Source of the DNA: Clostridia bacterium
Lineage (GTDB): Bacteria; Bacillota; Clostridia; Christensenellales; Aristaeellaceae
DNA length: 61,362 bases
Direction: 5' to 3'
Assembly (NCBI GenBank): GCA_017552535.1
Contig: JAFZPV010000030.1
Coordinates: 1-61,362 of the forward strand
In this document: one piece after another, positions 55,133 through 60,385 of the stretch
How the letters are laid out: each line of letters begins with the position of its first letter
Numbering within the stretch: position 1 is the stretch's first letter
Notes under the pieces: generated by a model
What the model was told of the DNA's origin: nothing
Databases searched by the model: none
The model's input: the letters and a program-made list of their open reading frames with translations, nothing else
Made by a program: the position numbers and the translations under genes

Positions 55133-56762
55133 TTACTCCAGCTGCGACACCTCGCCGATGCAGTTCCAAACGATCCGGACCTTCTGCACGCGCTGACCGT
55201 CGACCTTTTCGGCTTCGTGGACCATGACCTTTTCCACAAACTCGCGTATGATCTCAGCGTTCAGTTCCCGGATGTCCGTATACTTGCGGACTATGCGAAG
55301 GAAGCTTTCCGCATTCATGCCGGCCTCCTGTTCGGCCGCCATCGTCTGCCTCAGCTGAGCCGTCCTGGCTTCCAGTGCCTTCTGCTCTTCCTCATAACCG
55401 GCACTGAGCTTACGGAACCGTTCATCGGTTATCTTCCCTTCGACGCTGTCTTCATACAGCTGCCGGATGATGACGTCGAGCTTCCGGATGCGTTCCTCCG
55501 CTTTGTCGAGCTCCCGCCCGGCATCGCGCAGGCTGCGGCTGATCTCGGATCTCTTCTTTTTCGTGACCAGCTCCACGAACTCGTCCTCGTGTTCGCGGGC
55601 GAACTTGGTGATCTCGCGTATGCCTTCCAGCAGCAGCTGCTCTACCGCAATGTTCCGGATCCTGTGCTGTGTACAGCCGTTCCTTTTCTTGCGGTAGCGT
55701 GCACAGACGAAGTACTCCTGCTCGCGGGAACACCTGCGCTCCCGGTGCCGGTACAGCCTTGCTCCGCAGTCCGCGCAGTACATCATTCCGGACAGCATGG
55801 GCATCTCTCCGATGGGAGTCAGCCTGCGCCTGCCGTCGCGTATCCGCTGCACGATGTCGAAGGTCTCCTGGTCGATGATCGCCTCGTGGGTATTCCTGAA
55901 GATCAGCCATTCGGACGGGTCGCGCAGCAACAGCTTTTTGTTCTTGTACGACTTGCGGTACGTCTTGAAATTCGCCGTATGTCCCGCGTATTCCGGTTTG
56001 CCCAGCATGTGGAAAACGGTACTGGCGGACCAGTCGCATTCCCCGGCAGGATCCTTTGCGCAGCACGGCTTCCTGCCCTTGGACCGGGCATAGCTGACCG
56101 GCGTCAGGATCTGGCCTTTCCGTAAAGATGTTCGCGATCCGCAACGGCCCGTAACCCTGCATGCACAGCCGGAATGCTTCCCGCACGTGCTGCGCGGCCT
56201 CTTCGTCTATGATCCAGTGCTGGCGGTCTTCGGGATCCTTGACGTATCCGTAAGGCGGATGACTGCCCGTGTGCTTTCCGGCTTCTCCCTTCGCCCTGAT
56301 GACGGCGCGTATTTTCCTGCTCGTGTCCTTCGCATAGAACTCGTTGAAGATGTTTATGAACGGTGTCATGTCGTTTTCAGCCTGGCGGGCGCTGTCCACG
56401 TCATTGTTGAGGGCAATGAACCGTACGTCCGCGTTGGGGAATACCATATCGGTGTACATTCCCACCTGAAGGTAATCGCGGCCCAGGCGGCTCATGTCCT
56501 TGACGATGACCGTACCGACCGCGCCTTCGTCCACCAGTTCCATCAGCCGCTGCCAGCCCGGCCTGGCGAACGTAGTGCCGGAATACCCGTCGTCCACGAA
56601 CTCGGTGATGTTCCGAAAACCGTTCTCCTCGGCGTACCTGCGGAGCATGGCTTTCTGGTTCCGGATGCTGTTGGAATCCCCCTGCAGTTCATCGTCCCGC
56701 GACAGGCGGCAGTACAGTGCCGTGATCCTGTCATTTTTTGCCATATAAGATTGTCTGACCAT
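55133..56762 (-). pseudogene. Large serine recombinase (TnpX-like), one-base frameshift
   Basis: The N-terminal resolvase domain has [13 protein letters not shown] with catalytic Ser21, [14 protein letters not shown] and [15 protein letters not shown]. The recombinase domain includes [12 protein letters not shown], a zinc ribbon [13 protein letters not shown]...[11 protein letters not shown], and a C-terminal coiled coil. The span is 1630 nt, one base too many. The frames switch near 56117-56119 (AAA on the minus strand); deleting one A gives [16 protein letters not shown] and a 542-residue protein of normal length. GAGGAGG lies 4 nt before ATG 56762. It could be a sequencing error or an inactivating mutation. 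In the Tn4451 family this enzyme excises and inserts the element. Confidence 0.85.
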
Positions 56763-56800
56763 AGATCCTCCTCTCCGACAATCTTCGAGCGGGCAGCCTG

Positions 56801-56829
56801 ATTGTGCCATAACCGCCCGCTGAAGTCAA
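56801..56829 (-). promoter_or_regulatory. Promoter of the recombinase gene
   Basis: On the minus strand TTGACT (56829-56824), 17-bp spacer, CACAAT (56806-56801). Confidence 0.6.
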
Positions 56830-56849
56830 GGGCTGTTTTCCCCAATAAA

Positions 56850-56885
56850 AACAAAAAGCCCCTGCGGGATCAGCCTTACAGGGGC
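56850..56885 (-). terminator. Terminator after tnpW
   Basis: On the minus strand GCCCCTG/CAGGGGC (56885-56858) is followed by TTTTTGTTTTT. It separates tnpW from the recombinase transcript. Confidence 0.85.
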
Positions 56886-56895
56886 GCAGCGTGTG

Positions 56896-57183
56896 TCAGG
56901 AAGCAAGCCCGTAAGAGGGCTTTGCAGTCTTCCCGTCGCGTCGTTTTTCCGCACAGGGCGCTTCGCGCGTTTCGTTCAGGATCAGCCTCCTGAGCTTCTC
57001 GCCGGCAGTCACGCCGTTTGCGCTGAAAACGTTCTCCACGATATAGGTCGTGTCGCCTATGGTCTTCCGTACAGTCATATTCGATCTGAGCCTCCCGTTG
57101 TATACGGTATCCATACCGGTTAGCGCGCCGCGCCCGGCATCCGGGCAGCAGGCTCTTCTTCTCGCCAGCCGTAAGTCAGTCAT
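56896..57183 (-). CDS. tnpW: Transposon-encoded TnpW family protein
   Basis: The 95-residue protein contains the conserved core KTIGDTTYIVENVFS and GEKLRRLILNE, as in TnpW proteins of Tn4451-type elements. Their function is not established; they may assist the recombinase. GAAAGGGG 7 nt upstream supports ATG 57183, although homology starts only near residue 24 (MDTVYNGRL). It lies between the capsid gene and a terminator. Confidence 0.85.
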   Translation of the reverse strand: MTDLRLARRRACCPDAGRGALTGMDTVYNGRLRSNMTVRKTIGDTTYIVENVFSANGVTAGEKLRRLILNETREAPCAEKRRDGKTAKPSYGLAS

Positions 57184-57261
57184 ATCGAAACCCCTTTCGT
57201 TTCTGTCCGCGGTACCCGCAGGCAGGGGAAACGCCCGTCTGTGGGTACCGCTGTTTTTGTT

Positions 57262-59256: not shown

Positions 59257-59287
59257 AAAACCCCGAAGGCTTTTCGCTCCTTCGGGG
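59257..59287 (-). terminator. Leader hairpin upstream of the primase gene
   Basis: On the minus strand CCCCGAAGG/CCTTCGGGG (59287-59261) is followed by TTTTCTT. It lies between the control region and the primase start, so it may act as an attenuator. Confidence 0.75.
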
Positions 59288-60013
59288 CTTCTGTGTGTGG
59301 GTTCCGGGTCGTGGTATTTGGGTTGTTCTTTCTCTCAGGCTCTCAGTTTTTCACATGATAGCATTATAGCAGGTCCTTAAGTCTCATTTAGTCTCACTTA
59401 GTCTACTTAGGTCTCATTTCGAAATGTTTTTCATTCTTTTAACAATACGGGTCTCGGATTTCTGCTGCGTTTGGAAGCTATGGATTCAATGAGTATATCA
59501 TATCACGCGGAGTGGCAGGGAAGCAAGGTGATTCGAGGTGAAATGAGAGTGCAATTTTCATGCCCTATCATGAATCAAGTTACCATATCATAGGGGATGC
59601 TGGTACTGCGTCAATATGCAGGCAACTGCTCTCGGCTGTAAGTTTTCGAACCGGTTTATCGACCTGCCGGGCTCGGTCATTTTTCAACATGGTAGCATTA
59701 TAGCACGTCGTTAACTGCCATTTACTGTCAGAAGGTCCGTATAAATGTTAATTCTCGAAGATATACACAACGAGTCGATATCTGGCCTTTAGGGCCGCGT
59801 TCTGCTTCTAATAATGGAAGAGTCCCCGCAAGTATGTACCCGCGAGAACTCCTTCGTCTATTTCGACATTCTTAGTATAGTACTTTCCAGACCTGTTTAC
59901 AAGTGAATAAGGGTGCATTTATGTGCAGACTTTCTTTAAAGTGTACCCCATAAAACAAGCCCTCCAACAGCCGAAATACGAATCAGTTGGCTGCAAGTCC
60001 ATTTCCGGTACTG
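59288..60013. other. Non-coding control region of the mobile element
   Basis: No open frame is convincing over ~725 nt. It holds two copies of a leftward promoter-like module: TTTTTCACATGATAGCATTA (from 59348) and TTTTTCAACATGGTAGCATTA (from 59681), each with TATAAT on the minus strand (59363-59368 and 59698-59703). Each is followed by CATTTA-containing direct repeats. Weak -35 boxes suggest dependence on an activator or repression by an element protein. This could also be an origin of replication. Confidence 0.6.
59381..59420. repeat. Four tandem 10-bp direct repeats (iteron-like)
   Basis: GTCTCATTTA, GTCTCACTTA, GTCTACTTAG and GTCTCATTTC follow one another with an exact 10-bp period, about one DNA turn. 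They overlap the -35 region of the leftward promoter-like module that faces the primase. Confidence 0.8.
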
Positions 60014-60169
60014 TTATTTCAGTACTGCCCCGGCTTTTCCCTTTGTTTTGATCCGGCGCACCGCGTTATACGGGGTCAGGTCCTTGTATCCGGATTCGCT
60101 GCGCTTGCTGAGCAGTTCCTCCTGATGCTTGATCCTCCGGTTCTCCCGCTGCTTTTTACGATCCTTCAT
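60014..60169 (-). CDS. Small highly basic protein of the mobile element
   Basis: The 51-residue protein starts MKDRKKQRENRRIKHQEELL and ends with YKDLTPYNAVRRI and a Lys-rich tail. GGAGGG at 6 nt before ATG 60169 shows this is the real start; the frame is open further upstream to 60298 but without a Shine-Dalgarno. Short basic proteins with a TPYNAV motif are, from memory, common in phage and ICE modules of Clostridia. It could bind nucleic acid. Confidence 0.65.
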   Translation of the reverse strand: MKDRKKQRENRRIKHQEELLSKRSESGYKDLTPYNAVRRIKTKGKAGAVLK

Positions 60170-60296
60170 GTACGTTCCCTCCGTCCGTTCTCGTTTGGGT
60201 AGATTTCCACGACTCCCTTCGCGGGAAACCGCCTCTCGGGTGGACGTCCGCTGGATGCAGGAGGTTTTTTGCAATTTCCCTCTTGCATTTAGCTGC

Positions 60297-60326
60297 ATTA
60301 TAGCATATAATAGTAACCGTAATCAA
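60297..60326 (-). promoter_or_regulatory. Leftward promoter before the small basic gene
   Basis: On the minus strand TTGATT (60326-60321), 18-bp spacer, TATAAT (60302-60297). The surrounding TGCTATAATGC matches the two modules in the control region. Confidence 0.6.
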
Positions 60327-60334
60327 ACCTATGC

Positions 60335-60364
60335 GGCTTACGCTTACGCTTACTGTGACGCTTA
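60335..60364. repeat. Tandem hexamers CGCTTA
   Basis: GGCTTA, CGCTTA, CGCTTA, CTGTGA, CGCTTA follow in phase over 30 nt, between the divergent small gene and the gene at 60386. Confidence 0.7.
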
Positions 60365-60385
60365 CGCCCGGGGGAGGGTGACGGT

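Follow-up and report, generated by a model that had tools for sequence, protein, structure and literature searches.

The window analysed here is the whole 61,362-nucleotide stretch, contig JAFZPV010000030.1 (positions 1 to 61,362) of the Clostridia bacterium assembly GCA_017552535.1. Near its right end lies what is probably a copy, shortened by an internal deletion, of a mobile satellite that encodes its own capsid but no tail. From 60298 to 55133 on the minus strand, an open reading frame (ORF) of 94 amino acids (aa) is followed by a primase-like gene, the gene of an HK97-fold major capsid protein, a TnpW-like gene and a large serine recombinase (SR) in two pieces. The original prediction had already placed the capsid gene between a primase-like gene and a TnpW-like gene with a frameshifted SR, an arrangement confirmed by Pfam, TIGR01554 and PHROG matches, and it had noted that portal, terminase, protease and tail genes are missing from the window, where profile and tblastn searches for them were indeed negative. 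It had further proposed a hybrid of transposon and satellite without packaging genes. This is supported in part: a tail-less unit of capsid and SR recurs in 14 of 226 loci with enough downstream DNA, and 13 of its capsids form one clade. The element does not, however, seem to be built without packaging genes, since terS, terL, a portal and mostly a protease gene are present in relatives, and the window copy appears to have lost them by internal deletion. A decaying remnant, the other reading offered at that time, best describes this copy, with its SR frameshifted and its primase cut by the deletion. In what follows, G numbers designate genomes, L numbers the capsid or primase loci of relatives and C numbers contigs.

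A deletion junction in the window

The genome G098, from the same genus, encodes a capsid protein 91% identical to that of the window. Its contig C47 carries, in order, terS, terL, portal, ClpP-like protease, capsid, a DUF7666-like ORF (labelled by its resemblance to an ORF of L032), a TnpW-like gene and a full-length SR of 563 aa with the domains PF00239, PF07508, PF13408 and PF14287. Full-length recombinase copies therefore exist, as had been asked of the first reading, and the capsid and SR set, shared by G098 and other relatives, is not unique to the window contig. The portal of G098 matched TIGR01537, its protease NF045542 and its capsid a capsid profile. The small and large terminase subunits (TerS and TerL) had no NCBIfam match; TerL was matched by a TerL profile, and TerS is 65% identical to the TerS of L033 (phrog_83).

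Alignment of the window with G098 revealed a junction. Window positions 58573-57180 align to 4774-6164 of C47 with 88% identity, and the first 126 bases of this alignment fall in the spacer between protease and capsid (C47 4722-4900), so that the window 'primase' ends in ~17 codons of spacer DNA. Positions 59429-58558 align, again with 88% identity, to 6639-5770 of a second contig, C55, which encodes an entire primase (776 aa) comprising an NrS-1 HBD, D5_N, DUF5906 and a P4-family primase C-terminus. Phage primase profiles 341-788 positions long are matched by the window ORF over their first ~190 positions only. The two alignments meet at about 58561-58573, with ~4 nt of microhomology, and synonymous divergence (dS) from G098 is similar on both sides of the junction (0.36 and 0.37). 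The junction and the like divergence thus point to an internal deletion that removed the DNA from the primase C-terminus up to the protease. The missing DNA consists of ~5.8 kb of C55, 4.8 kb of C47 and any gap between the contigs, which sets the deletion at 10.5 kb or more if C55 and C47 are parts of one element. We infer that they are from the window junction and from L033 and G304, in which a single contig runs from primase through recombinase in that order.

Packaging and tail genes were searched for in the window by two means. Profiles that we built for nine connector or tail proteins and for TerL, portal and protease matched nothing among the ORFs of at least 60 aa over the whole 61 kb, and the TerS, TerL, portal and protease of G098 gave no tblastn match at E 0.01. 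As a control, the profiles recovered TerL, portal, protease, capsid and SR in G098:C47, and 4/9 and 3/9 connector or tail proteins in two other prophages of G098; the connector and tail profiles, which were seeded from one phage (L038), therefore miss some diverged proteins.

The junction could also result from an assembly artefact, two pieces having been misjoined in the bin, which we judge highly improbable. The bin is 77% complete in 62 contigs and just past the element the contig breaks off in what by eye is an apparent insertion sequence, but the ~4 nt common to both sides are short for a mis-join. The window genome contains one capsid copy only, and no TerL match was found in it, in a search of this incomplete bin that had no positive control.

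The SR reading frame is broken between about 56008 and 56112, where a sequencing error may be responsible. Taken together, the frameshifted SR, the cut primase and the missing packaging genes indicate that the window copy is most likely inert; it probably cannot excise, replicate or package itself. The ratio of nonsynonymous to synonymous divergence (dN/dS) between window and G098 is 0.13 for the capsid gene (0.133) and 0.135 for the cut primase piece. We considered the capsid value as proof of function after the deletion and rejected it, since it does not differ from that of the cut primase: most of the constraint is older than the deletion.

Capsid loci and gene content of relatives

Capsid loci were collected in one scan of genome contigs and three scans of viral contigs, the best 80 of each being taken. 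The first two scans kept the best 80 of 107 and the best 80 of 186 relatives; the alignment-based and the portal-based viral scans gave at least 80 loci each, some of them already present in earlier scans. Among the first 160 loci, 126 had at least 1.5 kb downstream of the capsid gene. All 12 of these with a capsid identity of at least 67% have an SR and no connector or tail match, and the SR lies in the same direction, about 1.8-5.6 kb past the capsid start. L036 (62% capsid identity) likewise has an SR and no connector or tail match, while the remaining 113 loci have connector or tail matches, one of them together with an SR. TerS was left out of the second survey, its profile having drifted onto the capsid protein in the first.

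The full survey comprised 309 loci, 298 with a capsid match and 226 with at least 1.5 kb downstream (11 loci without capsid match and 72 with less downstream DNA were left out). Connector or tail matches alone were found in 209 of the 226, SR alone in 14, both in 2 and neither in 1. The 14 SR-only rows represent at most 13 elements, because L314 is the contig of L120, and probably 12, as the ORF lists of L118 and L119 are almost identical. The later viral scans added one tail-less SR row, L314, and one row left without a class, L319. Among the loci with less than 1.5 kb downstream, L115, L116 and L121 have an SR and no tail match, and L112, L114, L123 and L043 were assigned no tail class.

These counts bear on a rival explanation, in which the cluster is what remains of an ordinary tailed prophage, stripped of its packaging and tail genes and later invaded by, or linked to, a Tn4451-like element. 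The wider capsid family, at ~63% identity and below, does lie nearly always beside connector or tail genes (the 209 loci above), capsid matches of up to 62% are found in phage records of 40-65 kb, and a TnpW-like gene with a DUF4368-type recombinase is transposon-like. Yet the nearest relatives, all 12 at 67% identity or above, show an SR in the direction of the capsid gene and no connector or tail match, and one-off decay would not yield a clade. We therefore regard this explanation as unlikely; a tailed prophage split by a Tn4451-like insertion, which would have spoken against the first reading, is not what these relatives show.

A careful maximum-likelihood tree was calculated from 55 capsids hand-picked from 135 distinct ones, along with a quick tree of all 135 rows. 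Thirteen rows with SR and without tail genes, window included, form one clade with three rows of no assigned class (support 100/96). This clade sits beside tailed-phage capsids, and the window pairs with G098 within it (100/100). Seven related loci, tail-less or of no assigned class (L113-L117, L122 and L033), have no protease match between portal and capsid: the gap between these genes is 59-129 bases in five of them, and another ORF lies between in the other two. Their capsids keep the N-terminal region, and the six distinct rows group together with moderate support (89/64).

The relatives contain a recurrent set of genes. TerS and TerL were identified in L032 by PF05119 and PF20441/PF03354, and in L033 by phrog_83 and phrog_9. 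PHROGs scans of chosen ORFs (10 from L033, 10 from G098, nine of these on C55 and one on C47, and 10 from G304/L118, L032, L035 and L034 taken together) returned no tail or connector family; the families found were primase, sigma- or regulator-like, terminase, portal, recombinase, ParB-like, amidoligase, abortive-infection, weak HNH and unknown. The connector and tail profiles likewise had no match in G098:C47, G098:C55 or G304. Sigma-like genes are present in some relatives. Record titles name goat abomasum for L031, roe deer abomasum for L032 and sheep ileum for L034, but no body site for L033 and L035. The two other prophages of G098 have related head genes (49-50% capsid identity) as well as tail genes and are possible helpers. 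In G451 and G525, genomes of the same order with high-scoring capsids, the neighbouring genes resemble connector, tape-measure and tail genes by size and by eye.

From these comparisons, the intact relatives look like capsid-forming satellites that use SRs and are without detectable head-tail connectors. An intact element would encode in one direction a primase-helicase, terS, terL, a portal, usually a ClpP-like protease, the capsid, small genes (DUF7666, TnpW-like or sigma-like) and at least one large SR. The SR would excise the element when a helper phage is active, and would also integrate it; the primase-helicase would replicate it, the element's own terminase would package its DNA into its own heads, and the helper would supply connectors, tails and lysis. 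In the window copy, the deletion would have cut the primase after ~217 codons and fused it to the spacer that precedes the capsid gene. We infer this satellite function, and the dependence on a helper, from gene content and order.

Several observations weigh against this reading. The G098 element is split over two contigs whose ends do not overlap, the window junction is read from the bin assembly, and the tail-less relatives come almost entirely from metagenome bins or predicted viral contigs, among which there may be chimeras. Very different connectors could escape the profiles seeded from L038. Analysis of the ends gave no attachment (att) site, and flank searches within the genus gave no uninterrupted empty site. 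L035 and L036, tail-less and with an SR, fall outside the clade among tailed phages; elements of this kind may thus have more than one origin. Over the part that aligns, the primases of L033 and G304 share only 30-33% identity with that of G098; the L033 primase has DUF927 in place of D5_N/DUF5906, and no primase was seen within 10 kb ahead of the L032 capsid. No decay is apparent in the window capsid, whose branch carries 19 nonsynonymous and 34 synonymous changes compared with 14 and 30 on that of G098. Finally, divergence from G098 is higher in the SR and the divergent gene (dS 0.80-1.15) than in the primase and the capsid (0.36), which indicates that the element is a mosaic.

Recombinases vary among relatives too: the two SRs of L032 have no DUF4368 match. 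The variation in primases and SRs suggests that replication and recombination genes are exchanged between elements. A 53% relative of the primase is encoded on another contig of the L032 genome (L227:8600-12713, G300:C80), with no capsid or SR profile match in the 19 kb fetched. It adjoins an ORF that resembles a tyrosine integrase by eye, and may belong to an ordinary element like a phage-inducible chromosomal island (PICI).

A reduced arrangement is also found in L034, from a Lachnospiraceae bin. There, ~159 TerS residues are fused in frame to the capsid from residue 27 (L034:9524-11101), no terL, portal or protease match was found at this locus, and three SR ORFs are kept, the third being a 76-aa piece. 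By its gene arrangement, L034 is a second, independent deletion of the kind seen in the window. That both deletions spared the capsid and SR genes could mean that these copies are minimal working satellites, which keep capsid and SR on purpose, use the capsid to feed or disturb helper heads and take terminase, portal and protease from the helper. The seven-locus subgroup is already without protease, and the window capsid is intact, with changes at just 2 of the 171 positions conserved throughout 14 relatives. In contrast, the window SR is frameshifted and the primase cut, the equal dN/dS of capsid and cut primase reflects mostly older constraint, and the L034 capsid lacks its first 26 residues. 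We thus hold a minimal working satellite to be very unlikely. A broader proposal, that SRs and a tail-less, connector-less and in part protease-less head module define a separate satellite lineage of gut Clostridia whose reduced members, such as the window copy and L034, still act on helper heads, is decidedly doubtful.

Three side observations concern individual relatives. The terL genes of L032 (5210-7774), L118 (4629-7229) and L120 (4877-7477) are enlarged to ~860 codons, the last two judged by length only; the L032 insert has a LAGLIDADG homing endonuclease domain and is probably an intein. An Abi_2-type abortive infection gene lies directly downstream of the SRs in L118 (15783-16835); abortive-infection genes are common satellite cargo. 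L036, with the order portal-protease-capsid-SR and no tail genes, is filed under Muribaculaceae (Bacteroidota) and is possibly misbinned.

Relation to known satellites and transposons

Capsid-forming PICIs (cf-PICIs) are defined by capsid, protease, portal, head-tail connectors, TerL, TerS and an HNH nuclease, and are widely distributed across Bacteria (PMC10690885). Their marks include terminase, protease, alpA, adapters and Pri-Rep (PMC10448857), and their capsids form three clades (PMC11389934). The intact relatives described above resemble them in having their own capsid, portal, protease, TerS, TerL and primase (a mark of Pri-Rep type) and no tail genes, and in size, with an estimated 16-18 kb compared with a cf-PICI mean of 14 kb (PMC10803314); the main hosts listed in the latter report do not include Clostridia. 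They differ in that large SRs are the only integrases seen beside the head module, that no connector was found, that one subgroup is without protease and that the hosts are gut Clostridia. The window copy retains only the capsid of the set formed by capsid, portal, protease, TerS and TerL. Going by connectors, the family looks distinct from cf-PICIs as defined, though similar in the outline of its working.

Other mobile elements share single traits with this family. Like the mobilizable elements of the Tn4451/Tn4453 type, which carry TnpX and TnpW, it has an SR of the Resolvase-Recombinase-DUF4368 type with a TnpW-like gene just upstream; unlike these transposons, the intact satellite kind has phage packaging genes. 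The phage-inducible chromosomal island-like element (PLE) of Vibrio cholerae is also a satellite that integrates by means of a large serine recombinase (PMC6002521), but it remodels the coat proteins of its helper (PMC10945586), whereas the present elements encode a capsid. The satellites MulchRoom and MiniFlayer of Streptomyces encode capsid and packaging proteins of their own and are not homologous to PICIs, but they have direct terminal repeats and virulent helpers (PMC10690885); they were set beside the present elements by description only. Other satellites with capsid genes have been described, a subset of them with a serine recombinase (PMC10448857).

Our literature search, which says little about the cf-PICI and SatelliteFinder studies, returned in the portions of text available no report of a capsid satellite with serine recombinases in Clostridia. 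Capsid satellites and SRs in satellites are each known; their combination without detectable connectors, in Clostridia, was not found in these sources. A satellite that makes its own heads and borrows tails can pair the heads with various kinds of tail and so spread. If a lineage manages without detectable connectors, and in part without a protease of its own, it would reveal the minimum of the head module that a satellite has to carry and the parts that a helper can lend. If SRs are used in gut Clostridia, such elements can also go unnoticed in searches that rely on tyrosine integrases or on connectors. The window copy and L034 illustrate a route of decay in which packaging genes are lost while the capsid and SR genes stay.

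Features and ends of the window copy

The features of the window copy are collected below. Its TnpW-like protein scores just under the PF14202 cut-off, while the G098 homologue is above it (26.9 bits).

Table. Positions of the element's genes and other features in the window, with the matches that identify them.
Feature	Position	Strand	Evidence
SR, C-terminal piece (Recombinase, Zn-ribbon, DUF4368)	55133..56008	-	PF07508, PF13408, PF14287; 81% aa identity to the full 563-aa SR of G098
SR, N-terminal catalytic piece (Resolvase)	56112..56810	-	PF00239, E 9.6e-27; 85% aa identity to G098
TnpW-like small protein	56896..57183	-	PF14202, 23.9 bits (cut-off 25)
HK97-fold major capsid, intact, 394 aa	57262..58446	-	PF05065, E 6e-74; TIGR01554, 1.4e-97, full length; phrog_10
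Retained protease-capsid spacer with deletion junction at about 58561-58573	58447..58573	-	Alignment to G098:C47
Truncated primase, ~217 residues of a 776-aa primase, then ~17 spacer codons	58521..59225	-	phrog_13901/1829/3022
Control region	59226..60013	.	GCATTATAGCA repeats at 59361 and 59695; 12-nt inverted repeat 59258-59290
94-aa ORF	60014..60298	-	103-aa homologue in G098:C55; no match in Pfam or PHROG
Divergent gene, 224-aa ORF	60386..61060	+	368 aa in G098, weak HNH-like C-terminus

The divergent gene at 60386 was matched in only two of the seven genomes of the genus, G000 and G098, the two that carry the element. It thus probably belongs to the element, which would extend to about 61041, where homology to G098 ends inside this gene. 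The HNH match at the end of its G098 counterpart is weak (phrog_1271, E 0.0017), and two partial copies of the 3' part of the gene lie elsewhere in G098. Between 61041 and 61362, the end of the contig resembles by eye an IS21-type element, whose 50-aa start has no Pfam match.

At the other end, the segment 54818-55083, which lies beside the SR and matches G098, was considered as the element end and dropped, since it is a dispersed repeat. A 1233-base query around it gave 59 matches in the window's own genome, most of those listed falling in this stretch, and full or partial copies are present in all seven genomes of the genus. These copies often continue with a TTCAGAAAAAACTGAAA-like end that is absent in the window. 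The SR of G098 also adjoins a copy of the repeat, the flanking DNA beyond being different; the repeat may be the target of the SR, or the adjacency may be due to chance.

The control region contains a 54-nt direct repeat (59343-59396 and 59677-59730, 80% alike), both units of which carry the 11-mer GCATTATAGCA. A third copy of the 11-mer is found at 60295, and in G098:C55 it occurs at 6571 and, with one mismatch, at 7187. These repeats are possible promoter or operator sites.

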